37,787 nt of DNA from Aigarchaeota archaeon (GTDB lineage: Archaea > Thermoproteota > Nitrososphaeria_A > Caldarchaeales > Wolframiiraptoraceae). Every line of letters begins with the position of its first letter. The stretch's first letter is position 1. Position numbers and translations under genes: made by a program. The notes beneath the pieces are model-generated. The model saw nothing but the letters and a program-made list of their open reading frames with translations. It did not search any database and was not told the DNA's origin. Positions 1,166-36,641 of this stretch are shown one piece after another. The stretch spans positions 1 through 37,787 of the forward strand of contig JANXDS010000007.1 in the NCBI GenBank assembly GCA_025059205.1, read 5' to 3'.

Positions 1166-1204
1166 ATACTCTGACGAATATTTGAAACATTTATGCTTAA
1201 TACT

Positions 1205-1262
1205 TCTTCAGCCCTTGACTTGTTAAAGGGCTTAACAACCTCTCAGGTTAAACAAGGGGAGG
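1205..1262 (+). promoter_or_regulatory. Structured 5' leader and ribosome-binding site of the cas operon
   Basis: The gap 1166-1270 contains a hairpin GCCCTT(1211-1216)/AAGGGC(1226-1231), a second short one AACCT/AGGTT around 1236-1250, and an alternative pairing of CCCTTG (1212-1217) with CAAGGG (1253-1258). A strong Shine-Dalgarno GGGGAGG lies at about 1256-1262, 8 nt before the ATG at 1271. The alternative pairing would involve the start of the ribosome-binding site, so the leader could affect translation. That is inference. Confidence 0.45.
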
Positions 1263-1270
1263 ATGTTTGA

Positions 1271-19399: not shown

Positions 19400-20998
19400 T
19401 TAACCATCCAGGAGTACAGATTCTATAGCTTCGGCCTCTGATTCCTCAGCGAGAGGTATACCCGTGACCTTTGCAGCCCTCTCACTCAAAGCAAAGATAT
19501 CGTTCCTCGAGATCAAGTATAGCTTAAACTTTCTCAACCCTGCTAGGAGTTGCTGCATGCCTATTCTTATCCTCTCCATGTAGCCGTAGAGACCTATGGC
19601 ACCCCATGGTATTGCGGATAAGTTCCCAATCTTCCTCTTAAGTTCCGAGAAGGCTATAAAGAACTTCTCTGGATCCGTGCCATAGTATCTTGAGAAGGTC
19701 ACTGGAAGCTTGCCTTCTTTGGTTAGCTTCACGAAATACTCAGCCTTCATCACGGCGGTTAAAATCGCCCTCCCAATTACCGCGGCCTTGACGAACGGTT
19801 GGTCGCCAAAGTTGCTCATGGCTATCGATTTTAGTATTTGGGTCTCGTTGATGAAACCACCTGCCATAACTATGTCCGGGACATGTTTGCCCCTCTTCCT
19901 CAAGAGTTGAGCGCACTTTAATACCAGAGCCTCTAGGTAAACAGTCGGTATACCCATCTCATCCATCATCGGGACGGGACTCATTCCGGTCCCACCTTCG
20001 CATCCGTCAAACGTTATGTAATCTATCTTTGCCTCAGATGCTATCTTCATCGTGTATGCAGTCGCGGTAGGCCTATATGCTCCTGTCTTGAGGCTTATGT
20101 GTTTCGCCCCTGCCTCCCTGAGTCTATCTATTCCCTCAAGGAAGTCTTCTTTTGATACTATACCAACACGACTATGCCTCTCAAAACTCTGTATGTATCC
20201 AGACTTGAACGCCTCTTGGATCTCTTGGTCCTCTGGATCTGGTATGACGAGGTATCCCCTCCTCTTCAACATCAATGCCTTGTCTAAGTCGAAGACTCTG
20301 ACCTCTCCGCCGATAGCTTTTGCTCCCTGCCCCCATTTCCTCTCAATTATCTCGACGTCGAGTTTGCTTATGGCATAAAGGTCCACACCTAGCCTTTCAT
20401 CCTCGACGTTCGTCTGAACTGCTATGCCGCCATACTTCCCGTCCCAAAACTCTCTGTACGCCCTGACCCTTTCCTCGAGAGCTGGAGACTTAACGATTTT
20501 CCCGCCGCTGATCACCGCATCCGGATCCATTCCGCCAACGTTCTCACCTACCGTTACGATTATTCCTGAGAGGGCCGAACCCACAGCAACGCTCCTCCAA
20601 TGCCTGGCCGCAACCGCCGTGGAGCCAAGAGCACCTGTGACCACAGGCATCTTCAATCTTATTCCGCCGACCACGGTCTCTACATCAACGTTCGGGAACA
20701 ACGCCTTGTCCGGGTCCGGCTCTATTCCCTCAGTGCCTCGAACTTCGCAGTGGAAATTAAAGTGACTCCAGTCAAGCCCATAGTCCTTTACGGCTCCTGC
20801 AGTGGACTGACCAAAGAGAAACGGAGCAGGATATAGCGCCTCCCTCCCCCTGAAGGCAGAGAGACATATCTCGCAGACGAATGGGCACTCCTCTATACAT
20901 ATAGGGCACATCCCCGAGACGAACGCTGGGTCGTCAACCCTAAGCGAGGTCCAAGTCGTCGACTTAGAGTTTAAATACCTCGAGTCCACACGCACCAC
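19400..20998 (-). CDS. FMN-binding glutamate synthase-domain protein (GltB2/MgsC-like)
   Basis: 532 residues. The N-terminus has a cysteine cluster C-x2-C-x3-C-x3-C-x2-C (CPICIEECPFVCEIC, about 31-45), likely holding an Fe-S centre. The rest is the TIM-barrel FMN domain of glutamate synthase: MPVVTGALGSTAVAARHWR, IKLKTG-type HISLKTGAYRPTA, then DYITFDGCEGGTGMSPVPM, AGGFINETQILKSIAMSNFG and KAAVIGRAILTAVM. Bacterial GltB has GHDGGTGASP at the central motif; the DGCEGGTGMSP form is unusual. No glutaminase domain is present. It would make glutamate from 2-oxoglutarate with a partner supplying ammonia, or act as an N-methylglutamate synthase C-type subunit. nrpR lies just upstream on the same strand. 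Confidence 0.83.
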   Translation of the reverse strand: MVRVDSRYLNSKSTTWTSLRVDDPAFVSGMCPICIEECPFVCEICLSAFRGREALYPAPFLFGQSTAGAVKDYGLDWSHFNFHCEVRGTEGIEPDPDKALFPNVDVETVVGGIRLKMPVVTGALGSTAVAARHWRSVAVGSALSGIIVTVGENVGGMDPDAVISGGKIVKSPALEERVRAYREFWDGKYGGIAVQTNVEDERLGVDLYAISKLDVEIIERKWGQGAKAIGGEVRVFDLDKALMLKRRGYLVIPDPEDQEIQEAFKSGYIQSFERHSRVGIVSKEDFLEGIDRLREAGAKHISLKTGAYRPTATAYTMKIASEAKIDYITFDGCEGGTGMSPVPMMDEMGIPTVYLEALVLKCAQLLRKRGKHVPDIVMAGGFINETQILKSIAMSNFGDQPFVKAAVIGRAILTAVMKAEYFVKLTKEGKLPVTFSRYYGTDPEKFFIAFSELKRKIGNLSAIPWGAIGLYGYMERIRIGMQQLLAGLRKFKLYLISRNDIFALSERAAKVTGIPLAEESEAEAIESVLLDG

Positions 20999-21043
20999 CT
21001 CATAAACTTTTTTTAGGAATTCGAGAGCAGTAATTTATAAAGT

Positions 21044-21072
21044 TTATGGAAAAAGGTTGCCGTTTTCCATAA
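21044..21072. promoter_or_regulatory. Perfect 10-bp inverted repeat upstream of the glutamate synthase-domain gene
   Basis: TTATGGAAAA (21044-21053) and TTTTCCATAA (21063-21072) are separated by 9 nt. On the minus strand a TATA box (TTTATAAATT, about 21031-21041) follows immediately, so the repeat covers the BRE region: a typical repressor or activator site. It also lies just past the nrpR stop and could act as its terminator. The half-site contains GGAA/TTCC like NrpR operators, but with N13 rather than N6 spacing. Confidence 0.55.
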
Positions 21073-21087
21073 GAAGCTGGATTTGTG

Positions 21088-22065
21088 TTAGATCTTCTTC
21101 ATGTCACCTATATTTATAAGACAGTGTGGAGCGAATACGTCGACCTCTAATCCGGCCTCTTTTATCGCAGCAGCCGGTGTAACTCCACCGACCATAGAGA
21201 ATCCGAACCTATCCATCGATACTGGGATCCCAAGGACATGTTCATTGGGCACACCTATTGTTAAGACCCCGCCCCAACCCCTTTTCTCAAGTTTTTCGAG
21301 TACCATAATCACCTCATCCCTTGCAAGCGCTGGTATCTCCCTCACATTTGCTGGTATTACTCCTGACCCGCTCTCAAGAACTCTCAGAATTGTAGTTGCT
21401 TGTTTGTAGATGAAAAACTCCAAAGGGTGAACCGTAACATGTTCATACGAGATTATGTCCACAAATCTTATGGGCTTACCTTTTAAGAACTGAACTAGGC
21501 CTCCATACTTCAAGAGCAGAGGGATTCCGCGCTTTAGCAGAACACCGTCGACCGTTAAGTTGCAGATAGTCAGGATCGCTATCTTACCACTCGGAACCGA
21601 TAGTTCTTTATACTCTTCTTCCTCATCTAAGATCTTCACGTATGGCGATGGTAAGAGTTTTGCATCGTAGAGGTCCCTTATTATTTTGAGTGCGGTTTCC
21701 TCAAAATTTTTATCTATTACAAAGACGTTTGTCACGACCTCACCAACGTTGCTATCAGGGTTGTAGGTCACTTTGTAAGCCAATGTTAAATACTCTGTCA
21801 AGATCGATCCCATCCTTTCGTAGGCTAAAGCCTTGCTGAGCTCCTCAATCCCAGCGCTCGTAATCGTTCTTCCTATCTTTTCATGACCTTCTACAAATCC
21901 ACGCTCCTCCAAAATCTTAAGGTGGTATCTTACCGCCCTTTCGCTCAAGAAGAATCCTCTCTTCATAAGCTCCCTCTGTATGATTGATGATCCCACAGGT
22001 TCGTTATGTCCGCTCAAGATCCTCAGAATCTCAATCTGCTTTCTATAGGCTTCGTCACGGAACAT
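21088..22065 (-). CDS. nrpR: NrpR-like nitrogen regulator (HTH plus one NrpR domain)
   Basis: 325 residues. A winged helix occupies about 1-70 (EILRILSGHNEPVGSSIIQRELMKRG, SERAVRYHLKILEERGFVEG), followed by one NrpR/DUF128 domain with KIAILTICNLTVDGVLLKRGIP, and ending in HEVL-type EHVLGIPVSMDRFGFSMVGGVTPAAAIKEAG and DVFAPH. In methanogens NrpR represses glnA, nif and related genes and releases DNA on binding 2-oxoglutarate. Methanogen forms carry one or two NrpR domains; this one has one. Neighbouring glutamate synthase-domain and, 9 kb away, glutamine synthetase genes are natural targets. Confidence 0.88.
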   Translation of the reverse strand: MFRDEAYRKQIEILRILSGHNEPVGSSIIQRELMKRGFFLSERAVRYHLKILEERGFVEGHEKIGRTITSAGIEELSKALAYERMGSILTEYLTLAYKVTYNPDSNVGEVVTNVFVIDKNFEETALKIIRDLYDAKLLPSPYVKILDEEEEYKELSVPSGKIAILTICNLTVDGVLLKRGIPLLLKYGGLVQFLKGKPIRFVDIISYEHVTVHPLEFFIYKQATTILRVLESGSGVIPANVREIPALARDEVIMVLEKLEKRGWGGVLTIGVPNEHVLGIPVSMDRFGFSMVGGVTPAAAIKEAGLEVDVFAPHCLINIGDMKKI

Positions 22066-22411: not shown

Positions 22412-24223
22412 TTAAATCACGTCCCTCTCGGGGATGGGCATCATTTTTATGAATTCCTTTTGGAATTCCGGCTCGGCTGCTAACTCCACGTATTCTATTT
22501 TTCTAGCAACCTCTTGTGCAAAACCTCTCAGAGTCTTTGAGAGGAGCATGGCCCTTGCACCTGCGCCGGCAGCGTTTCCGACAATCCTTACCCTGCTCAA
22601 TTCTACGTCGGGATACAATCCTATAGTTTTTGCCGATATAGGGTTAAGGAAGAAGCCAAAGGTACCGGCAACATAAAGTCTTTCAACTTCAGACATATTT
22701 ACCTTAAGCTTCTTCATCAAAATGTTCATGCCGGTCCTTATTGCTGCCTTTGCTAGCTGTATTTCCCTGATGTCTTTTTGTGTCAACGTTATATCCTCAC
22801 CGATTGCCGTATTCTCTTTGTATTCTATGACAAACTCCGGATAACCTCTATCGCTCATCCTTATACGTTTTGTGCCTGCGTTCATGTTCAGTCTCCCTGA
22901 CTTGTCGATCAGACCTACCGTGAATAGACCGGCGATTATGTCAACGACGGCTGAACCAGTTATACCTCTCGGTCTTACGTTACCTATAACACTATAGTTT
23001 ATCTCGCCGTCCGCCATCACCTCCGCCCTGTATATCGCGCCTGTGACGGCTCGCATTCCGTAGGTTATATGCGCACCCTCGAACGCAGGCCCGGATGCGG
23101 TCGAGCACGCAACGAGTCTTTCATCTTTCTTTACGACTATCTCTGTGTTGGTACCTATGTCGACTAAAATTACAGGACTCGTATGTTCCTGCATATTGGT
23201 TGCCACGATATCTGCGACAACATCTGAACCTATGTATCCCGCAATCAAGGGCGGCATGAAGACTCTAGCTTCGGCGTTCGCACGTATACCTATACTTTCG
23301 GCCATAAGGCACATAGATTCTCTCGTGATAGGTGTGTATGGAAAGTATGCCAACCTTTTCGGCTCAATACATAAAAGGATATGGTGCATGATGGTATTGC
23401 CAACTATCACTAACTCGTAAACGTCCTCAACACTGGTTCCAGTTGCATTGCATGCTCTCTTCATGAGTTCGTTTATGCAGCCAACTATCTTCTCTTGCAA
23501 TCCCTTAACGCCCTCTTTAAGGGCATAGTCAAGTCTAGATATGACGTCTTCACCATAAGCTATCTGCGGATTGATATCGGAAACGGTGGATAGCGTCTTA
23601 CCGTTTGTTAAGTCGACAAGGTATCCGGCCACCTTAGTGGTACCCACGTCAAACGCGAAGCCGAGCGGTCTGCAGCTTTCCCGTACATCTACTACCTCAT
23701 CGTCGTAAATTATGAGCGAGAACTTTTTCTCAACACCTACGTCAGCCATACGGGAAAACTTCTGTAATGCGTGCAGGCTGAATCGCTTTTTCATACCTGA
23801 TGGGAGTATAACCTCGTCTAGTACACCTCGCGCCTTGCTGGGTAGTGTGGCTTCAACGTTTTGGATCACCGGATCAAACCGTTCTTCGAACAACCAACCC
23901 TCAACCAACAAAATGTATTCGCCTGACCTGCTCTCGCTTGGTACAAACACGGATATCTCGTTCTCTTTCAATATCTTACATCTACAGGAAAGCCTATAAC
24001 CCTCATTCAGCTTCTTTGGTGTGAGCGCTACTTTTTCATCCTCGGTTATGGCAGACAGGCTGTCTGAGCCGGCGAGTATCCTAACCATACACTTTCCGCA
24101 TAGAGCCTTTCCGTTACAAGGCCCTATAAGGTCTACACCCGCCCTACGGGCAACCTCAAGCAACGATTCGCCTATGTTCGCTTCAGCTCTTTTCCCTTCT
24201 GGTGTGAAGTTGACGATGACCAT
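22412..24223 (-). CDS. RACo-like reductive activator of corrinoid proteins ([2Fe-2S] + DUF4445/ASKHA)
   Basis: 603 residues. The N-terminal plant-type ferredoxin domain has Cys36, Cys42, Cys45 and Cys80 (C-x5-C-x2-C-x34-C), i.e. GPCNGKALCGKC and YRLSC. The large C-terminal part is the ASKHA-type domain of RACo/RamA-like activators: FAFDVGTTKVAGYLVDL, NPQIAYGEDVISRLDYA, ILVDIGTNTEIVVKK, STASGPAFEGAHITYGMRA, YVAGTFGFFLNP and GNAAGAGARAML. Such proteins use ATP and low-potential electrons to return oxidised Co(II) corrinoid to Co(I). It is divergent from the corrinoid protein gene with a shared 150-nt promoter region, which fits that partner exactly. Confidence 0.92.
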   Translation of the reverse strand: MVIVNFTPEGKRAEANIGESLLEVARRAGVDLIGPCNGKALCGKCMVRILAGSDSLSAITEDEKVALTPKKLNEGYRLSCRCKILKENEISVFVPSESRSGEYILLVEGWLFEERFDPVIQNVEATLPSKARGVLDEVILPSGMKKRFSLHALQKFSRMADVGVEKKFSLIIYDDEVVDVRESCRPLGFAFDVGTTKVAGYLVDLTNGKTLSTVSDINPQIAYGEDVISRLDYALKEGVKGLQEKIVGCINELMKRACNATGTSVEDVYELVIVGNTIMHHILLCIEPKRLAYFPYTPITRESMCLMAESIGIRANAEARVFMPPLIAGYIGSDVVADIVATNMQEHTSPVILVDIGTNTEIVVKKDERLVACSTASGPAFEGAHITYGMRAVTGAIYRAEVMADGEINYSVIGNVRPRGITGSAVVDIIAGLFTVGLIDKSGRLNMNAGTKRIRMSDRGYPEFVIEYKENTAIGEDITLTQKDIREIQLAKAAIRTGMNILMKKLKVNMSEVERLYVAGTFGFFLNPISAKTIGLYPDVELSRVRIVGNAAGAGARAMLLSKTLRGFAQEVARKIEYVELAAEPEFQKEFIKMMPIPERDVI

Positions 24224-24373: not shown

Positions 24374-25066
24374 ATGGAGAACAATTTGGTTAAGGAGCAA
24401 CTAATGAGACTTAGGGAGACCATACTCAACGGTGATGCGAGTGCTGCAGCTGAAGCAGCAGCTGCCTTAAAGGAGAAGGGACTTCTGCCCCTAGAGATCG
24501 TCAACCAGGCAATCAAGCCGGCGATGGATGAGATTGGTAAAAAGTATGAAAGGCTGGAGGCCTTTCTTCCTGACCTCGTCTTAGCCGGTGAGGCAGCTCA
24601 AGAGGCGTTGAAAGTCATATTACCAAAAGAGGGGGAAGAATCTTTCATTAAAGGCAAGGTAGTCATCGGAACTATATACGGCGACATACATGATATAGGA
24701 AAGAACATCGTGGCAGCAATCCTGAGTGCCAACGGTTACAAGATAATTGACTTAGGTAACGACGTACCGCCTGAAAGATACGTCGAAACGGCAAAAAAGG
24801 AGGGCGCGCATATTATAGGCATATCCTGCCTCCTGACACCATCCATGTACTATATGAAGGATGTAATTAAGAAGTTAAAAGAGGAAAACATAAGGGAGAA
24901 GTTTTATGTGATCATCGGTGGAGCGGCGGTCTATCCTGAGTGGGCTAGGGAAATCGAGGCCGACGGATGGGCCAAGGATGCTGAAAGGGCTGTCCAGCTT
25001 TGCGATATTTTAATCGAGAAGGGCAAGAGCGTTCCTAAGCCCGTCATCTTGGGCGAGTGGCGTTAA
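24374..25066 (+). CDS. Methyltransferase corrinoid protein (MtmC/MtbC/MtaC family)
   Basis: 230 residues. An N-terminal helical cap (about 1-90; ALKEKGLLPLEIVNQAIKPAMDEIGKKYE, FLPDLVLAGEA) precedes the B12-binding Rossmann domain. The signature GDIHDIGKN places His106 as the lower axial cobalt ligand (D-x-H-x2-G). GISCLLTPSMYYMKDVI and VIIGGAAVYPEWA complete the cobamide pocket. It carries the methyl group between substrate-specific methyltransferases and an acceptor enzyme. It is encoded directly before two methyltransferases (16-nt gap), and the activator is divergent from it. Confidence 0.95.
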   Translation: MENNLVKEQLMRLRETILNGDASAAAEAAAALKEKGLLPLEIVNQAIKPAMDEIGKKYERLEAFLPDLVLAGEAAQEALKVILPKEGEESFIKGKVVIGTIYGDIHDIGKNIVAAILSANGYKIIDLGNDVPPERYVETAKKEGAHIIGISCLLTPSMYYMKDVIKKLKEENIREKFYVIIGGAAVYPEWAREIEADGWAKDAERAVQLCDILIEKGKSVPKPVILGEWR

Positions 25067-25082
25067 TGGAGGGGACGAATTC

Positions 25083-26465
25083 TTGGATCTACTTTTTAAT
25101 ATTTTGGACAAGACACTTACCGGCCCTCCTATAGAGAAACGCGAGTTTGAGTTCAAGCTCGTTCCGAAGGTGACGCGAGAAGTTCTTAAGGAGCATGGTC
25201 TCGAAAAGACGTTTGACCCTGAGAACCCTATAAACACTGACCTGAAGCTCGCAGAACAGTTTTACAAGGCCGGATACGATTTGGCGCTAAGGCTTGGTAT
25301 GTTCTGCCCTGACACTAAGAGGAGAGTAATTTTCACAGAAGAAGAAATTAAAGAGGCTTTGAAGAACGCTCCGAGCGAGGTTACGCTTGGATACGGTAAA
25401 GACAAGGTCACGATAAGGAGTAGGAAGCCCGAGGATAGAAATCCACCGGTTGCTGAAGGGTCGGCTTTGGGCATGTCGATAAGTGAGGAATACTTCATAC
25501 CGCTTTGTATGGCCATAGCGCAGTACAAGGTTATAGACATCATTCTCGCACCGACGCTGGATACAATAAACGGACGTGAAATTAGAGCAAGGACACCGTA
25601 TGAGAGCATCATGGGGATGTACGAGGCCAGATATGTCAAGGAGGCTCTGAGGCGTGTCGGAAGACCAGGAATGCCGCTTCATGGTGTTGAAGGAGCTCCA
25701 ACAGAGTATGGCTACTTCTCGGGTTTCCTTTGGGGTGGGTTCGAGCCTGATAGAACCATCGGCATAGCGCTCATACCCGAGCCGATAATGCTTCCCTATC
25801 AGATACTTCATAGAGTCGTTGTCAATCATCTGATAGGCTCACCCCTCGAGGCGGGACATATGTTGAGCATAGGTGGCTACTTTGGCCCACCTGAAGGTGC
25901 AGTCGTTGGATCCGTTGCTGCCCAGATTCTTCAGACTGCATCTATGTTTCCGACAGTAGTGGAGAGCACAATACTAGATGCAAGATACTTCGTAAACACA
26001 AATAGAGAGAGTCTTTGGGCTACGAGTACAAGCATGCAAGCGAGGACTATCGGCAACAAGGTAATGAACCTTGGCATAACGAGTCAGGTGAGCGGACCAT
26101 GCACAGATATGCTATTATACGAAACGGCGACGATAGCTATAGCAGACTCGGTTTCGGGCGTCGCGATCGAGATAGGTACGAGACCGGCGGCATGTAGGTA
26201 CAAGGACTACGGAAGCGCACTAGAAAACAAATTCTTTGCAGAGGTTCTTAAATCATCAGCTAAAAACTTGAAGCTCACGGATGCGAACGAGATAGTAAAG
26301 GCGATTTTGCCCAAATATGAGCACAGAATAAAGGATCCTCCAAAAGGAAAAAGCTTCCCAGAGTGCACAGACTTAAGGACACTTCAACCTTCGAAAGAAT
26401 GGTTGGAAATATACGAAAGAGTCTGGAAGGAACTAGAGGATTTGGGACTTCCTAGGTGGGAGTAA
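25083..26465 (+). CDS. MtmB-family methyltransferase homologue without pyrrolysine
   Basis: 460 residues, the length of monomethylamine methyltransferase MtmB. Family-like segments include LAEQFYKAGYDLALRLGMFCPDTKR, NPPVAEGSALGMSISEEYFIP, RTPYESIMGMYEARYV, GRPGMPLHG, NTNRESLWA, SGPCTDMLLYETA and GKSFPECTDLRT. MtmB proper reads an in-frame amber codon as pyrrolysine about 24 residues after the GRPGM start. Here the aligned position is Leu216 (CTT at 25728) and no in-frame stop exists. The substrate is therefore unlikely to be handled exactly as monomethylamine and remains unknown. TTG 25083 follows GGAGGGG at 25070-25077. Confidence 0.85.
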   Translation: MDLLFNILDKTLTGPPIEKREFEFKLVPKVTREVLKEHGLEKTFDPENPINTDLKLAEQFYKAGYDLALRLGMFCPDTKRRVIFTEEEIKEALKNAPSEVTLGYGKDKVTIRSRKPEDRNPPVAEGSALGMSISEEYFIPLCMAIAQYKVIDIILAPTLDTINGREIRARTPYESIMGMYEARYVKEALRRVGRPGMPLHGVEGAPTEYGYFSGFLWGGFEPDRTIGIALIPEPIMLPYQILHRVVVNHLIGSPLEAGHMLSIGGYFGPPEGAVVGSVAAQILQTASMFPTVVESTILDARYFVNTNRESLWATSTSMQARTIGNKVMNLGITSQVSGPCTDMLLYETATIAIADSVSGVAIEIGTRPAACRYKDYGSALENKFFAEVLKSSAKNLKLTDANEIVKAILPKYEHRIKDPPKGKSFPECTDLRTLQPSKEWLEIYERVWKELEDLGLPRWE

Positions 26466-26466
26466 C

Positions 26467-27825
26467 TTGCCATTCAAGGAGCTAGCATACAAAGATGCGG
26501 ATGAACTTATTTTCGGTTTTGCCAAGAAACCTCTAAGCTATGGGTTGGGACTTTCCGTTGGTGACGGCAAGGTCGTACCTGAAGTCAAGTATTTGTTGAA
26601 GCCTGGCTTTGAGCAGGACCTCAACGCACTCGTAGAGGAGTATAAGAAAGTAACGCTCTCGATCATGGAAAGGGCCGTCAACTTAGGTGTGAAGGACGTT
26701 CAGTTAGAAACGGAGTTCGTCGAACCGATGACTATAAACCCTGGCTGGGGAGCGGCAGTAATCGAGGCACAAAAAGAGATCCTTCTAACATATCATGAAA
26801 AGTATGGAATCAGGTCAGCTCTTAGAGCTACAATAGCTGACGTAAGAAGGTTTGACAAGGGGCTTCGTAAAGGTGAGTACTTTCAGGCAATCATGGATTC
26901 GTTCTCAGCCGCGGCCGAGGGTGGTGCGGACCTAATGTCGATCGAGTCAAGAGGGGGCCAAGAAGTTTTTTCATACTCGCTCATAAGAAACGATCTAGCT
27001 GGTACATTGTTCTCTTTGGGCATTCTCGCGCCAAGAGACGTTAGGTACATTTGGAGAGAGATCGTGAAGAACACAGGGAAAGCTATACCCGCAGGAGATA
27101 CAGCGTGTGCCATAGCCAACAGCGCCATGGTCTTAGCAAACGGATTGGTTAACAGGAAGATACCGCATACGTTGGCTGCTGTCATTAGGGCCATGTCGGC
27201 AGTTAGGACCTTGGCATGCTACGAGGAAGGTGCAAGGGGCCCCGGAAAGGATTGCGCGTACGAGAACGTAATCATCAAAATAATCACGGGCTACCCGATG
27301 AGTATGGAGGGTAAGACTTCGGCCTTCGCTCATTCCAGCCTAGTGGGCAACATAGTTGCGGCGGCGTGTGATCTTTGGTCCAATGAGACTATAACCGTTG
27401 ATGATACGTTCGGCGGCAAGACACCTGCTATAATATTCGAAATGCTAAGCTACGACACAGCTCTGATGAACGAGTCGATAAACTCGAAAAACAGCAAAAC
27501 TCTCCAGCAATTGTTCATTAATTCAGACAAGTACCGAGACCCGCAGGCCTTAATTCTCTCACCCGACAACGCATTCAGAATAGCGAAATCTATCGTTTCG
27601 GTCGGTTCAGATTACGAAAGGACTGTTTCTGCTGCGATTGAGACTATCCGTATAATTGAAGAGAATCTGGACAAATTGAGACTACCTGAGGTAGAGAAGA
27701 AATACCTCATAACACTGAAGAACTTCTTTGATGCGGTTCCGGAAGAGGATAAGCTGATTAGGGAATCCATTAGGAAATACAGCGGAAAAGTATCCGAATT
27801 TAATCCATCCAACTATGAGCTCTGA
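26467..27825 (+). CDS. MtaB-like zinc-dependent corrinoid methyltransferase
   Basis: 452 residues. It resembles methanol:corrinoid methyltransferase MtaB: ADLMSIESRGGQEVFSY (candidate Glu ligand 160 or 166), PAGDTACAIANSAMVLANG (Cys214) and GPGKDCAYENVIIKIITG (Cys263). The 49-residue spacing between the two Cys equals that of the known zinc ligands Cys220/Cys269 of Methanosarcina MtaB. It would transfer a methyl group from methanol or a related O-methyl substrate to the corrinoid protein encoded upstream. TTG 26467 follows directly on the MtmB-like gene, with GGTGGGAG as ribosome-binding site. Its stop is 3 nt from the convergent permease stop. Confidence 0.87.
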   Translation: MPFKELAYKDADELIFGFAKKPLSYGLGLSVGDGKVVPEVKYLLKPGFEQDLNALVEEYKKVTLSIMERAVNLGVKDVQLETEFVEPMTINPGWGAAVIEAQKEILLTYHEKYGIRSALRATIADVRRFDKGLRKGEYFQAIMDSFSAAAEGGADLMSIESRGGQEVFSYSLIRNDLAGTLFSLGILAPRDVRYIWREIVKNTGKAIPAGDTACAIANSAMVLANGLVNRKIPHTLAAVIRAMSAVRTLACYEEGARGPGKDCAYENVIIKIITGYPMSMEGKTSAFAHSSLVGNIVAAACDLWSNETITVDDTFGGKTPAIIFEMLSYDTALMNESINSKNSKTLQQLFINSDKYRDPQALILSPDNAFRIAKSIVSVGSDYERTVSAAIETIRIIEENLDKLRLPEVEKKYLITLKNFFDAVPEEDKLIRESIRKYSGKVSEFNPSNYEL

Positions 27826-27828
27826 GAT

Positions 27829-28770
27829 TCATCTTAATTTTTTGAATGGTTTTGCCAAAGAGGCTGGGCCTTTTACCTTTCTACCGGCGACGAGTAGAAG
27901 GATTATCGTGAATAAGTAGGGCAGCATTAAGGCGAACTGGTATGACAAGAACGGCACGTTAAACGCCTGAATCCTCAGCTGGAATGCATCAACGAAGCTG
28001 AAAAGGAAAGTACCACCGAGTAGCAGCAACGGGTTCCATCTCGAAAGTATGACTAACGCTATAGCTATGTAGCCCCTTCCCTGTGTCATATTGTCCAAGA
28101 ACATATTATAGTAGCCTATAGAAAGGAGCGAACCGGCTAGTCCGGCGACGCATCCTTCTAGAACTAGTAGTACATAACGCGTCAAGTTTACGTTGATGCC
28201 TAGATAGTCAGCTGTTTGTGGATCCTCGCCTATAGCCCTAATCTTCAGACCGTTTTTTGTTCTAAATAACAACCACCAGCTCAAGAGTACCAGCGTAAAA
28301 GCCGCGTAGGTATGCGGAAGGTGGTTAAACAAGATTTTGCCGACTATCGGTATCTGAGAAAGTACGGGTATGTCGATGGGGTGGAGCGTCATTTCGATAT
28401 GCGGCGGTATAGGGCTAACGTACCAACCGAAGCTCGCCCTGTACAGGTAAGAGGTTATACCTATAGTTAGCAAGTTAAGCGCTAATCCCGTGACCATCTG
28501 ATCCAATGCCAGCGTTATCGTCAAGAAAGCGAATAATAGGCACAGGACCGCTCCGGCAATGCTTGCGACCAGCGTTGCATAGCTCAGATTTCCCGTGTAA
28601 AAAGCAACCATGAATGCCACGAAGGCTCCCATCAACATGGTACCTTCAAGGCTAAGGTTCAGAATTCCGCTCCGTTCAACGAGTAATTCCGCCAATCCGG
28701 CTAATAAAATAGGCGTGAGTAGAGTTATGCTGGAATAGATTAGACCTAAAGCTACCTCGGTCGTTATCAT
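27829..28770 (-). CDS. ABC transporter permease (BMP/nucleoside type), second subunit
   Basis: 313 residues, about eight hydrophobic segments. Family motifs are LLAGLAELLVERSGILNLSLEGTMLMGAF near the N-terminus and IGEDPQTADYLGINVN, the cytoplasmic coupling-loop region. It is the YufQ/NupC-type inner membrane subunit. The start ATGA overlaps the stop of the first permease gene. It pairs with that permease to form the channel of a BMP-dependent importer; homologues carry purine nucleosides, and the substrate here is not shown by sequence. Confidence 0.9.
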   Translation of the reverse strand: MITTEVALGLIYSSITLLTPILLAGLAELLVERSGILNLSLEGTMLMGAFVAFMVAFYTGNLSYATLVASIAGAVLCLLFAFLTITLALDQMVTGLALNLLTIGITSYLYRASFGWYVSPIPPHIEMTLHPIDIPVLSQIPIVGKILFNHLPHTYAAFTLVLLSWWLLFRTKNGLKIRAIGEDPQTADYLGINVNLTRYVLLVLEGCVAGLAGSLLSIGYYNMFLDNMTQGRGYIAIALVILSRWNPLLLLGGTFLFSFVDAFQLRIQAFNVPFLSYQFALMLPYLFTIILLLVAGRKVKGPASLAKPFKKLR

Positions 28771-29864
28771 AGCTTCAGCCTCCCCATAATCTTTTTAGAT
28801 AACTTGTCTTCGACAAAGTAGCTCATCAATACGAATATAATTATGAGGGCTTGGATTATACCCGCCATACCCACAGGTACTTGAGCCATCCTATGCATAG
28901 TCATGCTTCCATTTATTATTCCACCCAAGAAGAAGGAGGTTAGGGCTATTAGCAACGGGTTCAAATAACCAAGTAAGGCAACAGCTATTCCTGTATAACC
29001 GTAGGGCGAAGTTGACGGAGAAAGGTCGAGCCTCATCTTATGCTGTATTCCTAAAACTTCAAACCCTCCTGCTAAACCTGCCAAGAAGCCGCTTATTAAC
29101 ATGGCTTGAATTATTAGACGCGTAGTGTTTATATTCGCATATTGCGCAGTTCTAGGACTTGAACCAAGGATATCCAGCTTGAGTCCGAACACGGCCCTCT
29201 TCAAGAATAGATAAGCAAGCGGAACCGCAACTAGGAAGGCTAACAAAACCCCTAAATGGAGTCGGGTGCCCTGTATAACTATCGGTATCCATAGTGCGGG
29301 ATTTATAGTCTCTGTTTCAGGAAACATCGAGATCGGATCTCTGAACGGACCATGGAGTAGGTAGCTTACTAGATAGATAGCCACGTAGTTAAGCATCAGC
29401 GTGGTGATTACCTCATTTATACCGTACAACGTCTTCAAGATGGCCGGCGTGAGTGCCCAAAACGCTCCACCCAAACCGGCAATCAGGATAATGACTGGGA
29501 GTGCTAACGGTGCTGGAACGTCCTTAAACATTATGCTTAAAATCGCTGTCATCATACCACCAATGTAAAACTGTCCTTCCGCACCTATGTTCCATACCCT
29601 TGCCGTAAAGACTACTGCAAGCCCTAAGCTTATCAGTAGCAAGGGTGTCGCCCTGATAAATGTCTCTGGAATTGCTGAAGGCGAAAAAGCACCTTGAAAG
29701 AGCCAATAGAAAGCCTCCAATGGGTCTTTACCTATAGAAGAAATTATGATAGCGCCTGCAAGGAAGGCAAAGCCAACAGTTGATAGGGCTAGTGCCATTC
29801 TAATTAGCAGAAACCGTTGCTCTACCGTTATGGTCGGTCCCCTCCGCAGCCAGCATGTACGCAC
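28767..29864 (-). CDS. ABC transporter permease (BMP/nucleoside type), first subunit
   Basis: Up to 365 residues with 8-9 hydrophobic segments. Motifs are GKDPLEAFYWLFQGAFS after the first helix, VVFTARVWNIGAEGQFYIGGM, and LDILGSSPRTAQYANINT (ATPase coupling loop). The first ATG at 29864 makes a 65-nt overlap with the ATPase gene. ATG 29798, one base after the ATPase stop, gives a 343-residue protein starting MALALSTVGFAFLAG and may be the true start; neither has a strong ribosome-binding site. It is the YufP/NupB-type partner of the second permease. Confidence 0.88.
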   Translation of the reverse strand: MRTCWLRRGPTITVEQRFLLIRMALALSTVGFAFLAGAIIISSIGKDPLEAFYWLFQGAFSPSAIPETFIRATPLLLISLGLAVVFTARVWNIGAEGQFYIGGMMTAILSIMFKDVPAPLALPVIILIAGLGGAFWALTPAILKTLYGINEVITTLMLNYVAIYLVSYLLHGPFRDPISMFPETETINPALWIPIVIQGTRLHLGVLLAFLVAVPLAYLFLKRAVFGLKLDILGSSPRTAQYANINTTRLIIQAMLISGFLAGLAGGFEVLGIQHKMRLDLSPSTSPYGYTGIAVALLGYLNPLLIALTSFFLGGIINGSMTMHRMAQVPVGMAGIIQALIIIFVLMSYFVEDKLSKKIMGRLKL

Positions 29865-31320
29865 CTATCAGCATAGGATCCGCCTCTTCTCTCTCTAGGA
29901 TCTTCGTAAACTTTCCGTCGTTGATTATGGCTATTCTATCGCTGAGCTCTAATATTTCATCAAGATCTGATGAGATGAGTAGTATTCCGACATCTTTCGA
30001 GGCAAGTTCTGATAACGTTCTTCTAACATAGAAAGCGGACTTTGCATCCAATCCTGCTGTAGGCTGCTCAGCTATCAGGATTTTTGATGGAGTGATTATT
30101 TCACGACCTACTATTATTTTCTGAATATTTCCACCTGAAAGATATTTCACTGGAGTTTTGAGACTTGGTGTTTTCACGTTCATGAACGATACGACCTTTT
30201 TCGCGAATTCGTTTATTATAGCAAAGTTTAGGACGTTGCCATGTTTCTTAAATTCTTTCTCATCGAAACATCTAAGGACGCTATTTATTGCTACGCTAAG
30301 TGTTGGAGCTACACCAAGTTCTAACCTTTCGGCGGGTATGTAGTTCATCCTACCTGGGTTGCTATTTTTTTCGTTAAATACTATCTCACCCGAAGCTGGT
30401 CTCCTGAGACCTACTATAGCCTCAACAAGTTCTTTTTGACCGTTGCCTTCAACACCAGCTATCCCTAAAATCTCACCTTCGTGTAACTCGAAGGATATGC
30501 CCTTTACCTTGGTTAAACCCATGTCGTCATTTACTACTAAATTTCTTACGATTAACAGTGGCTCTTTTTTGAGTGGAGGTGTAATCTTTTTGGTTATAGG
30601 TGTGAGTCTTTCTCCGACCATTAGCTCTACAAGATGAGATTCATCCCTTATCTCGTCTGTCCCGAGTGTAGCCACGACACGCCCCGTCCTCATAACAGTT
30701 ATCCTGTCACTGATGCGCATGGCTTCACGTATTTTATGTGTGATTAGAACTATGCTGTATCCACTGGAGGAAAGGGATTTGAGCAGCTGGAGAAATCTAT
30801 CGATCTCTGGGCCGCAAAGCATTGAGGTAGGCTCATCAAATATTAAGACTTTAGCCTTACTCAGCAAGAGTCTAAGTATTTCTATCCTTTGTCTTTCACC
30901 TACTGACAGAGCGTAAATTGGTGAGTCCAATTTTACTTTGAATCCAAGAAGTTTAGAAAGCTTCTCAACGTCTGTAAGCATACGCTTCATGTTAAATTTT
31001 TGGCCAATAAGTCCGAGCATCAAATTCTCCAACACGGTCATCGTCGGTATGAGTGCGAGGTGTTGGTGAACCATCCCTATACCTTGCTTCAGGGCATCCG
31101 ATGGTGAATTGAATTTAACTTCTTTCCCCTCAACGTATATCGAACCGCTCGTTGGTTTTAGACATCCACTTAATATCTTCATAAGTGTCGTTTTGCCAGC
31201 TCCGTTCTCACCCAGTAATGCATGGATCTCGCCTTTCTTTAAATCGAAGTCAACCTCGTGATTCGCCACTATGCCCCCGGGGTAAACCTTCGTTATCTTT
31301 TTTAACTCAACCACGTACAT
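29800..31320 (-). CDS. ABC transporter ATPase, tandem domains (BMP/nucleoside type)
   Basis: 506 residues with two nucleotide-binding domains. The first has Walker A GENGAGKTT (about 37-45), signature LSVGERQR and Walker B VLIFDEPTS. The second has the degenerate Walker A GVEGNGQKE, signature LSGGNIQK and ILIAEQPTAGLD, as in sugar/nucleoside importers (RbsA/YufO/NupA type). It powers import through the two permeases. It is 54 nt downstream of the binding-protein gene. The order (binding protein, ATPase, permease, permease) is the standard BMP operon. Confidence 0.93.
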   Translation of the reverse strand: MYVVELKKITKVYPGGIVANHEVDFDLKKGEIHALLGENGAGKTTLMKILSGCLKPTSGSIYVEGKEVKFNSPSDALKQGIGMVHQHLALIPTMTVLENLMLGLIGQKFNMKRMLTDVEKLSKLLGFKVKLDSPIYALSVGERQRIEILRLLLSKAKVLIFDEPTSMLCGPEIDRFLQLLKSLSSSGYSIVLITHKIREAMRISDRITVMRTGRVVATLGTDEIRDESHLVELMVGERLTPITKKITPPLKKEPLLIVRNLVVNDDMGLTKVKGISFELHEGEILGIAGVEGNGQKELVEAIVGLRRPASGEIVFNEKNSNPGRMNYIPAERLELGVAPTLSVAINSVLRCFDEKEFKKHGNVLNFAIINEFAKKVVSFMNVKTPSLKTPVKYLSGGNIQKIIVGREIITPSKILIAEQPTAGLDAKSAFYVRRTLSELASKDVGILLISSDLDEILELSDRIAIINDGKFTKILEREEADPMLIGAYMLAAEGTDHNGRATVSAN

Positions 31321-31374
31321 GGTTTCATGCCTACTAAAAAATTAGGAGGTTTTATGTCTGCTTTAATATTTAGA

Positions 31375-32454
31375 TTATTTCCATCTTTCTGGAACCCAGT
31401 CCTCGTATATCGGAACGACGAACTTTCCCTCGATTATTTGCCTCTCGAGGTTCTCGACCAATTCCAGCACGTCTGGCGGAACTTTCGTTTTGAGTGCAGG
31501 ATTCCATACCAGCTTGGCCCATCCCTCTTTCATGCCCCAGTCGTATATTCCACCTTCCCACTTGCCTGCCTGCTTCATCTCTATGATGTGCTTGACGAAT
31601 GTCTTTAGATCCCATGTTACACTGGCCAAGACGATGTCAGGTGCTAGGCCAGATTGATCAACGATGTTTCCAAAGCAGTAGACGGTCTTGCCCTCCTTTA
31701 GGGCCTCTCTGGCGGCTTCGAAGGGTCCATACCTTTCAGCGTATATAAAGTCAGCACCAGCTTCGATCAACGCCTTCGCAGCTTCCTTTCCCTTTACAGG
31801 GTCGAACCAACTCTCGATGAATACCGCCCTGATCTTAACATCTGGATTTACGGACTTTGCACCTGCTGCAAAAGCGTTGACCAGTCTGTTAACGTCTGGT
31901 ACGGCGTATGCGGTAACTACTCCTACAACATCGGTCTTGGTCATTTTACCGGCGATCACACCGGCTAAATATGCCGCATCTTGAATCCAGTAGTCGTAAA
32001 GCACTACATTAGGCGGATATTCCAGGTTCGTTGGACCCGAGCCTTGCGCGAACGCTACGTTAGGAAACTCCTTCGCGACCTTTATTGTTACCTCGTGATA
32101 TCCCCAACTGTGCGGAATTATTATGTCGTAACCAGCCGCTATGTACTCTCTGATAACCCTTTCGACGTCTGCCGTGTCAACCTTCTCTGAATAGACGTAT
32201 TCTACGTTCAGATTATTCACGGCCCAGGTCATGGCTTCATGCATGACAGTATTCCAGGGTTCTTCAATAGGTGTCACGTAAATGACCGCGACCCTGATCT
32301 TCTTCGTAGGCGTAGGCTGGGGCGCCACTCCCGCAAACGAAAACGCGTACCATGCCACTATACCTATAGCAATTATGAGAACTATAACGGCTACCACGGC
32401 TGTCTTTGAGATACCCATCCTAGCACTACTGTGAGTTGCACGCGTTCGTACCAT
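31375..32454 (-). CDS. BMP-family substrate-binding protein, membrane-anchored
   Basis: 359 residues. A short basic N-terminus and one hydrophobic segment (ISKTAVVAVIVLIIAIGIVAWYAF, about 15-38) anchor it to the outer face of the membrane, followed by a Pro/Thr linker. No lipobox Cys is seen. The mature domain begins KKIRVAVIYVTPIEEPWN. It shows BMP/PnrA features: YDIIIPHSWGYHEVTIKVAKEFPNVAFAQ, DAAYLAGVIAGKMTKTDVVGVV and GADFIYAERYGPFEAAREALKEG. Relatives bind nucleosides or similar compounds. ATG 32454 is the first codon after a TATA box; an ATG 12 codons on is possible. Confidence 0.9.
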   Translation of the reverse strand: MVRTRATHSSARMGISKTAVVAVIVLIIAIGIVAWYAFSFAGVAPQPTPTKKIRVAVIYVTPIEEPWNTVMHEAMTWAVNNLNVEYVYSEKVDTADVERVIREYIAAGYDIIIPHSWGYHEVTIKVAKEFPNVAFAQGSGPTNLEYPPNVVLYDYWIQDAAYLAGVIAGKMTKTDVVGVVTAYAVPDVNRLVNAFAAGAKSVNPDVKIRAVFIESWFDPVKGKEAAKALIEAGADFIYAERYGPFEAAREALKEGKTVYCFGNIVDQSGLAPDIVLASVTWDLKTFVKHIIEMKQAGKWEGGIYDWGMKEGWAKLVWNPALKTKVPPDVLELVENLERQIIEGKFVVPIYEDWVPERWK

Positions 32455-33146: not shown

Positions 33147-33237
33147 CTAAAATTCAAAAAATCTTTTTCTATGTTTGACTAACGGGAAAAGACATAAAGT
33201 TATAATCTTGGAAATTAACCTAAAGGTAAGGAATACG

Positions 33238-35679
33238 ATGTCTGACACTTCGTATGTGAAAGTGACCACGGAAATTCAGCGTAGAAGGACTTATGTCAAA
33301 CCCATGAACGAAAGGATTGCAAAGCTTAGGAGCGAGAGCGTTAATGCCGAGGTCAAGGTATCTGCTGAAAGAGCGAAGCTGGTGACCGAGTTTTACAAGA
33401 GTGGTGCTGCAAGAGGGAAGTCTGTTCCAGTCCAGCGTGCTTTGATGTTCAAATATTTGATGGAGCATGTTAGCATTCCAGTTGAAGACGGGCAACTTAT
33501 TGTTGGTATAAGAGGGACGGGGCCGAAGGAGGTGCCAACATATCCCGAAATATGCGTCCATACCATTAAGGACTTGGAGACGTTAGATTCGAGAAAAAAC
33601 ATGCCATACAAGGTTGACGAAAAAACCAAGGAGCTTTATGAACGCGAAATCATCCCATTCTGGAAAGGCTCCTCGATGAGGGACGTGATCTTTGAGCACC
33701 TCCCAAAAGAGTGGAAAGATGCATACGAAGCTGGAATATGGACCGAATTCATGGAGCAAAGAGCGCCAGGACATACCGCTGGAGGAGATAGGGTATTCAA
33801 AATGGGGATCCTGGATATAAAGAAAGAAATCAAAAAAATGATAGAGGAGACAGATCCAAGCGATCCAGAATATTTTGATAAGTTAGAAGAATTGAAAGCG
33901 ATGGAAATAGTAGCTGACGCTATAGTGAGATATGCAGAACGATATGCTGAAAAGTTGGAAAGAATGGTAGCAGAGGAGAGAGATGAACGAAGAAGAGAAG
34001 AACTGAGACAGATGGCGGAGATATGTCGCTGGGTTCCAGCCCATCCACCAAGAACATTCTGGGAGGCGCTTCAACACTATTGGTTCATTCATGTTGGCAT
34101 AACTTACGAAACTAATCCATGGGATTCGTTCACTCCAGGACGGTTAGACCAGCACCTCTATCCGTTTTATGAACGGGATATAAAAGAAGGGAGGTTAACG
34201 AAGGAATTTGCGAAGGAATTATTGGAGGCTTTTTGGGTGAAGTTTAACAATCAACCGGCAGTCCCAAAGGTTGGTGTGACACTTGAAGAAAGCTTCACTT
34301 ATAACGATTTTTCAAAGATCAACATTGGGGGTTTGAGAGAAGATGGGTCGGACGCAGTTAATGAACTTTCATACTTGCTTTTGGAAGTGTTAGAAGAAAT
34401 GCAAACAATGCAACCAAACACAGCAGTCTTATTAAGTAGTAAGAATCCAGACCGTTTTCTCATGAGGGCTCTGGAGGTCATATCACGAGGCTTTGGAGAA
34501 CCTCCGCTCTTTAATTTTGATGGTGCTATAATTAAAATGCTGAGACAAGGAAAAAGCTTGGAAGATGCACGCATGTGTGGAGTCAGCGGTTGTGTAGAGA
34601 CTGGTGCCTTTGGAAAGGAGGCATATATTTTAACCGGATATTTGAACCTTCCTAAGATATTAGAGATTACGTTAAACAACGGCATAGATCCAAGAACGGG
34701 TAAGAAAGTAGGAATAGAAACTGGCGATCCGAGAAAATTCAAAACTTTTGAAGAGTTGTTTGAGGCTTTTGTAAAGCAGCTGAGGCATTTTATCTCTATC
34801 AAGTGTATGGGAAATGACGTCATAGAAACGCTTTATGCGAAGTATCTTCCGGTACCGTTCTTGTCACTATGGATTGAAGATTGTGTAAAAAATGCGAAGG
34901 ACTATAATGCCGGTGGAGCGAGGTACAATACTAGTTACATCCAGATAGTTGGGCTAGGAACTCTCACGGACTCGTTGGTATCCTTGAAGTACAATGTGTT
35001 CGAAAGAAAACTTTTCACGATAGATGATGTCCTCAGCGCTCTAAGTAAAAACTACGAGGGGCATGAGGTTATGAGACAGACGTTTATCAATAAGACACCG
35101 AAATATGGAAACGATGACGATTATGCTGACGATATTGCAAAAGCAGTAGTGAATACCATTGTAAGAATCGTGGAAGAAACTCCTCCGACACCAGTGAGGA
35201 AAGCCTCACGTAGGGTTTACTTTCTTCCAACGACTGCCCATATATACTTCGGAAAAGTAACAGGTGCGACGCCTGACGGAAGAAAAGCTAGCGAGCCGCT
35301 TTCTGAGGGTATATCGCCCGTGCAAGGAATGGATAGGAGGGGTATAGTAGCAGTTTTTAGATCCGTAGCAAAAATTGATTGGGACAAAACTGGAGGGGCG
35401 TTACTCAACCAAAAACTCACTCCAGACCTATTACTTGACATGGAAAATATCAAGAAGATGGCTCAACTTATAAGAGCGTTCTTCACGTTAGGAGGGCACC
35501 ATGTACAATTCAACGTCGTTAGTGCAGAATTACTGAGAGAAGCGCAAAAACGTCCTCAAGACTTCCAAGATCTGATGGTAAGGGTTGCAGGTTATAGCGA
35601 CTACTTTGTAAATCTTCCAAAAGGGCTTCAAGAAGAGATAATAGCAAGAACAGAACAGAAGACATTACATAGTACGTGA
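33238..35679 (+). CDS. Glycyl-radical enzyme, PFL2/hydroxyproline dehydratase-like
   Basis: 813 residues. The thiyl-radical Cys452 lies in CGVSGCVETGAFGKEAY with Glu454 (Cys-x-Glu, as in C-O/C-N lyase members such as glycerol dehydratase, CutC and HypD). The glycyl radical site is RVAGYSDYF with Gly785, near the C-terminus. The SGCVETG.FGKEAY.LTGY context is the one I associate with trans-4-hydroxyproline dehydratase, but a related dehydratase cannot be excluded. It is an oxygen-sensitive cytoplasmic enzyme for anaerobic fermentation or amino-acid use. ATG 33238 is preferred to TTG 33175 because AAGGTAAGG precedes it. It overlaps the activase gene downstream. Third positions are more A/T-rich than in most neighbours, hinting at transfer. 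Confidence 0.9.
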   Translation: MSDTSYVKVTTEIQRRRTYVKPMNERIAKLRSESVNAEVKVSAERAKLVTEFYKSGAARGKSVPVQRALMFKYLMEHVSIPVEDGQLIVGIRGTGPKEVPTYPEICVHTIKDLETLDSRKNMPYKVDEKTKELYEREIIPFWKGSSMRDVIFEHLPKEWKDAYEAGIWTEFMEQRAPGHTAGGDRVFKMGILDIKKEIKKMIEETDPSDPEYFDKLEELKAMEIVADAIVRYAERYAEKLERMVAEERDERRREELRQMAEICRWVPAHPPRTFWEALQHYWFIHVGITYETNPWDSFTPGRLDQHLYPFYERDIKEGRLTKEFAKELLEAFWVKFNNQPAVPKVGVTLEESFTYNDFSKINIGGLREDGSDAVNELSYLLLEVLEEMQTMQPNTAVLLSSKNPDRFLMRALEVISRGFGEPPLFNFDGAIIKMLRQGKSLEDARMCGVSGCVETGAFGKEAYILTGYLNLPKILEITLNNGIDPRTGKKVGIETGDPRKFKTFEELFEAFVKQLRHFISIKCMGNDVIETLYAKYLPVPFLSLWIEDCVKNAKDYNAGGARYNTSYIQIVGLGTLTDSLVSLKYNVFERKLFTIDDVLSALSKNYEGHEVMRQTFINKTPKYGNDDDYADDIAKAVVNTIVRIVEETPPTPVRKASRRVYFLPTTAHIYFGKVTGATPDGRKASEPLSEGISPVQGMDRRGIVAVFRSVAKIDWDKTGGALLNQKLTPDLLLDMENIKKMAQLIRAFFTLGGHHVQFNVVSAELLREAQKRPQDFQDLMVRVAGYSDYFVNLPKGLQEEIIARTEQKTLHST

Positions 35680-36641
35680 TAGCATTGTCTGCCATCCTGA
35701 ACTCTAAAAAACAAACTAAAGCACCAAATCAGTCAATTAAGGGAAGAATATTTGATATAGAGAGTTATGCGATACACGACGGTCCCGGTATTAGAACCAC
35801 AGTCTTTATGAAAGGTTGTCCACTTAGATGCTGGTGGTGTCATAATCCAGAGGGGATTGATTTCTCTAAGAACCTAATGTATTTTGATTATAAATGCATT
35901 CGTTGCAAAACATGCATGAAAGCATGTCCGACAAACGCTATCTCGTTTAATGGGGAGGAACACATCATTAATCGAACGTATTGCTCAAGGTGCGGAATAT
36001 GTGCCGAACGGTGTCCTACAGGTGCTCTGAGACTTGTTGGATATGACATTACAGTATATGAACTGGTGAGAGAAATTGAGAAAGACGTCCTCCTCTACGA
36101 TCGCTCTGGGGGCGGGGTCACTTTTTCGGGCGGAGAGCCGCTCTTTCAGCCATTGTTCCTAAAAGAGGTTCTGAAAGAATGTAAAAATAGAGGTATACAT
36201 GTGGCACTGGATACTACAGGATATGCACCACCAGAAATATTTAGATCATTTATAGATATTGTTGATTTATTTCTTTACGATATAAAATTACTAGATGACA
36301 AGGAGCACATAAAATATACGGGCGTTTCGAACGAGCCTATAAAGAAAAATTTAATGACCATCGTGGAGAGGGGTAAAGGGAATGCTGTAATTCTGCGGTT
36401 CCCGGTAATTCCCGGAATAACAGATACAGAAAAAAATCTAAATGAACTTTTGGTCTTTCTCTCGGAACTAAAAGGGATAGACGAAATAGATATACTACCT
36501 TTTCATGATGTGAACGAAAAGTATGAGAGACTTGGTATTGAGTACAAGATGAAAGGATTTCGTGCACCCTCAAAAGAAAAGTTGATATACATAAAAGAAA
36601 AGCTCGAAGGTGCTGGATTTTTCGTCAAAATCTGGGGGTAA
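35676..36641 (+). CDS. Glycyl-radical enzyme activating enzyme (radical SAM)
   Basis: 321 residues. The radical SAM cluster is GCPLRCWWCHNPEG (C-x3-C-x2-C), preceded by SYAIHDGPGIRTTVF, the usual start of activases. An inserted ferredoxin-like region carries two [4Fe-4S] motifs, CIRCKTCMKACP and CSRCGICAERCP, characteristic of activases for dehydratase-type enzymes rather than PFL. GGGVTFSGGEPLFQP binds SAM. It installs the glycyl radical on the enzyme encoded upstream; GTG 35676 overlaps that gene's stop (GTGA), so the two are translationally coupled. Confidence 0.94.
   Translation: MIALSAILNSKKQTKAPNQSIKGRIFDIESYAIHDGPGIRTTVFMKGCPLRCWWCHNPEGIDFSKNLMYFDYKCIRCKTCMKACPTNAISFNGEEHIINRTYCSRCGICAERCPTGALRLVGYDITVYELVREIEKDVLLYDRSGGGVTFSGGEPLFQPLFLKEVLKECKNRGIHVALDTTGYAPPEIFRSFIDIVDLFLYDIKLLDDKEHIKYTGVSNEPIKKNLMTIVERGKGNAVILRFPVIPGITDTEKNLNELLVFLSELKGIDEIDILPFHDVNEKYERLGIEYKMKGFRAPSKEKLIYIKEKLEGAGFFVKIWG

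Follow-up and report, generated by a model that had tools for sequence, protein, structure and literature searches.

The MtmB family comprises more than a thousand homologues, most of them without pyrrolysine, and only one non-pyrrolysine member has an assayed function. This member, MtqB of Methanococcoides (ACT9XH_RS04775), forms with MtqC a tetramethylammonium/choline methyltransferase, which was published in March 2026 in a study whose tree covers 1,061 sequences (PMC13044021); the view of the first-pass annotation that non-pyrrolysine MtmB proteins are little described is therefore dated. An MtmB-family protein of strain DCMF, a cultivated strain of Ca. Formimonas warabiya, is strongly induced by dichloromethane (PMC9768040). 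The reductive cluster for uric acid and purine degradation includes, in the part of its description used here, XdhD, YgfK/UacX, SsnA, HyuA, YgeW, YqeA and YgeX (PMC12507026).

The window, i.e. the whole 37,787-nucleotide stretch of DNA analysed, belongs to contig 7 of a 1.19-Mb MAG of a hot-spring archaeon (Aigarchaeota) that is 97% complete. A three-component corrinoid methyltransferase set (methyltransferase, corrinoid protein and activator) is complete in one locus, and the gene order is the same in 5/5 Terraquivivens-group genomes: a divergent RACo-type activator, the corrinoid protein, MtmB, MtaB and a convergent BMP-type ABC transporter. The features of the locus are as follows.

22412-24223, minus strand: reductive activator of corrinoid proteins, RACo type, divergent (PF14574, 285 bits; PF17651; PF00111)
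24374-25066, plus strand: cognate corrinoid protein (MtxC) with the DIHDIG cobalt-ligand motif (PF02310 and PF02607)
25083-26465, plus strand: non-pyrrolysine MtmB homologue, proposed corrinoid N-demethylase (PF05369; 1L2Q/1TV2; model)
25680-25682, plus strand: codon CAT for His200, the residue in the pyrrolysine column (alignments with MtmB1 and TAG-containing MtmBs)
26467-27825, plus strand: MtaB homologue, methanol:corrinoid methyltransferase family (PF12176, 554 bits)
27829-28770, minus strand: ABC transporter permease 2, convergent with MtaB with 3 bases between (conserved order)
28767-29864, minus strand: ABC transporter permease 1 (conserved order)
29800-31320, minus strand: ABC transporter ATPase with a double ATP-binding domain (conserved order in five genomes)
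31375-32454, minus strand: BMP/PnrA-type substrate-binding lipoprotein (PF02608, 157 bits)

The MtmB open reading frame starts with TTG after GGAGG, ends with TAA and encodes 460 amino acids with zero in-frame TAG codons, which bears out the initial claim that the pyrrolysine codon is missing. The protein matches PF05369 with 279 bits (cut-off 25), residues 4-456 covering positions 3-450 of the 450-position profile, and M. barkeri MtmB1 (1L2Q/1TV2) with E=2e-55 over residues 6-456. Its AlphaFold2 model (pLDDT 96.3) superimposes on 1L2Q, 1NTH and 1TV2 with TM scores of 0.95-0.96, and lies 1.5 Å from 1L2Q. Alignment, profile and fold thus all give MtmB rather than another family, and the protein is a full-length homologue, as first annotated. 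It is 95% identical to the protein of Ca. Terraquivivens tengchongensis, 93% to that of T. tikiterensis, 89% to that of T. yellowstonensis and 86% to that of Aigarchaeota SKYB24, so the source organism is Ca. Terraquivivens or very near it. Because this identity is kept in four relatives, the intact gene is not a decayed copy in a pyrrolysine-using organism, and a profile search of the 97%-complete genome found no PylS over the cut-off (best 23.7 of 178 bits); the matches to the PylS model are generic class II synthetases at 18-24 bits. The protein is probably an active methyltransferase.

The amber position had been assigned to Leu216 (25728-25730), and here the alignments disagree: Pyl202 of M. 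barkeri MtmB1 aligns with His200, four TAG-containing MtmBs (family f8, Methanomassiliicoccus) also place the amber position there, and Leu216 lies 16 residues further on. His200 is common to 5/5 Terraquivivens-group MtmBs. Glu259 and Gln333 of MtmB1, which we take to be pyrrolysine contacts, correspond to Gly258 and Ile332 in the alignment. In near relatives of the window MtmB the pyrrolysine column is occupied by H, W, Q, G, I, Y or P, and the residue there appears to vary with the substrate. Elsewhere in the family, two members of a divergent branch (L081, 9986-11356; L083, 3393-4760) carry Lys in this column and have purine permeases adjoining. Ca. Hecatella orcuttiae, a genome of the Bathyarchaeota lineage, encodes a TAG-containing, probably pyrrolysine, MtmB (L182 and L122) besides 11 non-pyrrolysine copies.

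The first-pass annotation had paired MtmB with a cognate corrinoid protein (24374-25066) and an activator (22412-24223), and both are indeed present beside it. The MtaB homologue (26467-27825) and the BMP-type ABC transporter next to it (27829-32454) are additions to that annotation. The corrinoid gene is separated from MtmB by 16 bases, and MtmB from the MtaB gene by 1 base. The corrinoid protein scores 187 bits against TIGR02370, below the cut-off; its closest solved structures are 1Y80, MttC and MtmC, and by type it belongs with the methylamine/glycine-betaine corrinoid proteins, not with MtaC. The MtaB homologue matches 2I2X with E 5e-130, Glu164, Cys220 and Cys269 aligning with identical Zn ligands, and reaches 546 of the 720 bits that the NCBIfam equivalog model requires. 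Since the corrinoid protein is not of the MtaC type, MtaB presumably shares it with MtmB. The activator comprises an N-terminal 2Fe-2S domain and an ASKHA domain, and falls below the cut-offs of the AcsV/RamA models. Beside the activator gene, positions 19400-22065 encode a glutamate-synthase-domain protein (PF01645) and an NrpR-like regulator; these two were rejected as parts of the system, being absent from the flanks examined in relatives.

Two further regions of the window stand apart from this system. At 33175-36641 a thermophilic archaeon is seen to encode a glycyl-radical enzyme over the trans-4-hydroxy-L-proline dehydratase cut-off (1154 of 1100 bits) together with its activating enzyme; these genes also adjoin the MtmB locus in Ca. 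T. tengchongensis, and were set aside as being common to one relative only. Positions 398-9790 hold an apparent type III CRISPR-Cas locus with several RAMP-like proteins, judged from the open reading frames alone, including a Cas10-like protein (4535-7228) and a possible ring nuclease (398-1165).

The solved relatives closest to the BMP binding protein are AtzT (guanine), Lbp (guanosine) and 3S99 (adenine), and other near ones bind nucleosides or riboflavin. Of the AtzT pocket residues (list from PMC6834077), the stacking Trp194 and also Ser97 recur here, Asp stands in for Glu165, and Asn218 and Asn220 are replaced by Glu and Tyr. The protein also has two conserved tryptophans, W67 and W216. 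Its only NCBIfam match is a putative vitamin B6 transporter and the best NCBIfam match of the ATPase is ABC_ATP_B6, both below cut-off. A second BMP-type transporter of the window's genome (G000 contig 3, 47797-48591; L090, L092) has no recognised methyltransferase adjoining.

MtmB is present in 47/398 genomes of a sample of the phylum. In family f8 a BMP transporter, scored also as the part fitting on the contig, stands beside a tandem non-pyrrolysine MtmB pair wherever the contig reaches far enough; in f6 it adjoins such a pair, and in f4, f20 and f29 none was found beside MtmB. In one f8 genome (G193; L023 and L107) the pair lies in one 961-codon open frame, possibly a natural fusion. A search of named genomes added MtmB loci from Hecatella, Chloroflexota, Clostridia, Asgard and Bathyarchaeota. 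The association of BMP with a corrinoid protein and non-pyrrolysine MtmB, in varied orientation, is seen in f8, f6, Hecatella, Chloroflexota and Clostridia; locus L072 was dropped from the BMP-linked set, its binding protein being SBP_bac_8 by Pfam.

The closest outside relative of the window MtmB (54%) is at Hecatella locus L060, which contains two BMP operons, three TRZ/ATZ-type amidohydrolases, a dihydroorotate-dehydrogenase-like protein and a xanthine-dehydrogenase (XDH)-type large subunit. L062 has two MtmBs with PreA, dihydropyrimidinase, carbamate kinase and carbamoyltransferase; L088 has two 8-oxoguanine deaminases, three XDH-type subunits, carbamate kinase and carbamoyltransferase; and L071 has SsnA over the cut-off, a cytosine-deaminase-like protein, XDH-type subunits and a luciferase-type protein. 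Neighbours over cut-off in the window's clade include SsnA (461/444 bits), 8-oxoguanine deaminase (671 and 623/532), PreA (470/335) and dihydropyrimidinase (476/393). In Ca. Formimonas warabiya (L081), whose MtmB is of a branch more distant from the window's, the gene is followed by the xanthine permease PbuX (481 of 414 bits) and by two MtaA/CmuA-like URO-D genes, the one checked being over cut-off; L161 of this organism is an XDH/BMP cluster. A Clostridia contig (L083) carries an NCS1 permease, an adenosine deaminase and a BMP protein. The uncultured Anaerolineales N4_Bin_171 (L152, L153, L071) has 21 MtmB-family genes, many in SsnA/XDH/deaminase/BMP regions, and the Clostridia MAG CSMAG_109 gives 14 MtmB matches.

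The window MtmB falls in a 43-row clade of a 105-row MtmB tree with SH-aLRT of 99, the trees being quick searches that carry SH-aLRT support only. A strict nucleobase-type feature is found at 35/43 rows of this clade, most of whose members are flanked by xanthine dehydrogenase, TRZ/ATZ/SsnA/8-oxoguanine deaminases, cytosine-deaminase-like proteins, NCS1/NCS2 permeases or BMP proteins; L061, L078 and L174 belong to the clade but have no nucleobase-type neighbours. A 26-row clade (Bathyarchaeota, Asgard and some Chloroflexota) has the feature in the two L177 rows only, where an XDH-type gene lies 8-10 kb from MtmB, and has MttB neighbours at several loci. The context label changes 14 times on the 105-row tree, compared with a mean of 33 and a minimum of 24 in 200 locus-level shuffles. 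Genomic context follows the MtmB tree.

When the clade comprised 22 rows, degradation or permease genes were found at 6/11 of its loci and at 2/37 of the others outside f8 (p 8e-4), and BMP at 5/11 and 1/37, respectively; Terraquivivens was taken once, f8 was left out of the comparison group, and the p-values are descriptive because the features were chosen after part of the data had been inspected. The pattern was repeated in many of the next loci, which were previously unseen MtmB loci from the same genomes with seeds fixed beforehand (e.g. L153, L155, L157, L158, L159, L161, L163, L166, L169, L170 and L183). In a same-genome control using Formimonas and Hecatella, nucleobase-type genes occurred at 8/14 non-pyrrolysine loci versus 3/40 evenly spaced 20-kb background windows (Fisher p 3e-4), L060 and L081 among the 14 having also given seeds. 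Both pyrrolysine loci of these genomes lack such genes (0/2), and none lies beside MtmB at a third, L085 of Methanomassiliicoccus.

The BMP transporter, the kin of its binding protein, the neighbours within the clade, the same-genome control and the tree-following context together lead to a nucleobase reading. On these sequence comparisons, the window MtmB may be a corrinoid-dependent enzyme that N-demethylates a methylated nucleobase or a comparable N-heterocycle, a proposal for which we see an even chance; a methylated purine, as base or nucleoside, would be the likeliest substrate. Context would narrow the 'unknown substrate' of the first-pass annotation to a nucleobase-like N-heterocycle. 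As no pyrrolysine is present, the methyl group of the substrate should already be activated, for example on a cationic or electron-poor ring nitrogen. By analogy to MtgB and MtqB, for which this is established with quaternary amines, pyrrolysine may be dispensable with an activated ring N-methyl.

In the scheme that we infer for the window's system, covering the substrate, the methyl acceptor, the role of His200 and the sharing of the corrinoid protein by MtaB, the BMP-type ABC transporter would import the N-methylated substrate. With a nucleobase-like ring bound inside the MtmB barrel, Co(I) of the corrinoid protein would attack the ring's N-methyl, and the methyl group would pass from the substrate to this Co(I), the cobalt being kept reduced by the RACo-type activator. 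Methanol, or an O-methyl compound related to it, is probably the source from which MtaB charges this corrinoid protein. Another enzyme would then remove the methyl group, perhaps the single MtaA-like URO-D protein (C3:102.8 kb; 210 of 244 bits, under the family cut-offs), in which Asn replaces the His of the usual His-x-Cys motif. Profile searches of the genome found no McrA, which rules out a methanogen by Mcr, and no MtrH, Pterin_bind or CdhC, so that methyl transfer via MtrH, a pterin-binding methyltransferase or CODH/ACS was discarded.

The bare ring may enter reductive purine degradation in Hecatella, Chloroflexota and Clostridia. Purine-ring degradation is not supported in the window's genome, because it has no XDH-type Mo protein and its only Amidohydro_1 protein is dihydroorotase-like, adjoining a carbamoyltransferase; no SsnA-type amidohydrolase was found in it either. 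The main gap in the nucleobase reading is thus that Terraquivivens has the transporter although no purine-ring-degrading enzymes were found there, and that the putative substrate is carried over from relatives of 30-54% identity. In Terraquivivens the base may be salvaged or exported, or the substrate may differ. The nucleobase reading is also weakened by the match of the BMP protein to a B6-transporter NCBIfam model and its two differing AtzT pocket residues, and by the MtaB partner, which it does not account for.

Three other readings were weighed. Since MtqB, the sole assayed non-pyrrolysine MtmB, acts on quaternary amines (PMC13044021), the window protein could be a similar methyltransferase for tetramethylammonium, choline or another such amine, imported by the BMP transporter through an aromatic sandwich in which W67 and W216 could form a cation box; the separate large MtmB clade with MttB neighbours is what quaternary amines would predict. 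The window's clade, however, lies apart from that MttB-linked clade and has nucleobase-type neighbours, no MttB homologue or betaine-type transporter is recognised beside the window MtmB, and the nearest solved BMP structures are those of purine-, nucleoside- or riboflavin-binding proteins. We therefore regard a quaternary amine as unlikely.

The below-cut-off B6-transporter models, which are the closest NCBIfam matches of both binding protein and ATPase, would also fit import through BMP of another N-methyl heterocycle that is not a nucleobase (vitamin B6-like, a methylated pyridine, an s-triazine or similar). AtzT also takes 2-hydroxyatrazine (PMC6834077), and TRZ/ATZ amidohydrolases use s-triazines as well as purines. 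Against this, neighbours of the relatives are over cut-off in specific purine or nucleobase families (PbuX, 8-oxoguanine deaminase and SsnA), which makes such a substrate quite improbable. A methanol/methylamine methylotrophy operon with the BMP transporter as an unrelated neighbour would suit the adjoining MtaB with its retained Zn ligands, and growth-linked parallels exist in that use of methanol and trimethylamine with no methane formed has been proposed for another archaeal lineage, the Brockarchaeota, but it is very doubtful given that the BMP family recurs beside non-pyrrolysine MtmB across lineages in different orientations and without MtaB, where chance, from the two BMP genes in the window's genome, predicts about 3.6% of loci, and that the window protein has His, Gly and Ile where MtmB has Pyl202, Glu259 and Gln333.

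Extending the nucleobase reading, the large MtmB branch that includes the window gene could comprise anaerobic enzymes that use a corrinoid to N-demethylate methylated purines (methylxanthines, methylurates, methylguanine and methylated nucleosides), a generalisation that we place somewhat below an even chance. If so, the batteries of MtmB genes (21 in Anaerolineales, 14 matches in Clostridia) would perhaps provide one enzyme per methyl position, with the methyl groups passing to C1 metabolism and the bare purine to reductive purine degradation. Purines would be a second substrate class for the MtmB family, and the anaerobic use of methylated nucleobases that RNA turnover or plant alkaloids supply would be explained; no description of their oxygen-free use in this way was found. 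The reading also bears on the need for pyrrolysine with simple methylamines, as a freely varying column is expected if the methyl group of a ring substrate is already activated.

In the searchable literature, outside which most subscription papers lie, no report was found that links MtmB-type genes with purine transport or breakdown. Searches for Terraquivivens methyltransferases, corrinoid caffeine N-demethylation and BMP with MtmB returned none, and the Caldarchaeales literature searched does not mention methyltransferases. The MtmB family and one non-pyrrolysine function, that of MtqB, were already known; the genomic context of the window's clade is new.

Like MtaB (2I2X), the window homologue at 26467-27825 retains all three Zn ligands; it differs in falling under the equivalog cut-off and in adjoining a corrinoid protein of the methylamine type, not MtaC. 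Families of the reductive purine cluster (PMC12507026) surround MtmB relatives at L062, L071, L088 and L161, and the luciferase-type protein of L071 fits the reductive urate cluster in its Chloroflexota form. The part of the cluster's description used here includes no methyltransferase, and Terraquivivens differs in having no XDH-type Mo protein. With M. barkeri MtmB (1L2Q) the window protein shares the full-length Pfam match, the fold and the pairing with a corrinoid protein and activator, whereas it is only 27% identical by structural alignment, has His200, Gly258 and Ile332, and comes from a genome with no PylS or Mcr. MtqB/MtqC likewise pairs an MtmB homologue that lacks pyrrolysine with its own corrinoid protein. 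According to its published description, MtqB is placed near the pyrrolysine MtmBs (PMC13044021), which would set it apart from the window MtmB, which in our tree lies well within the non-pyrrolysine part, in the clade with nucleobase-type neighbours.
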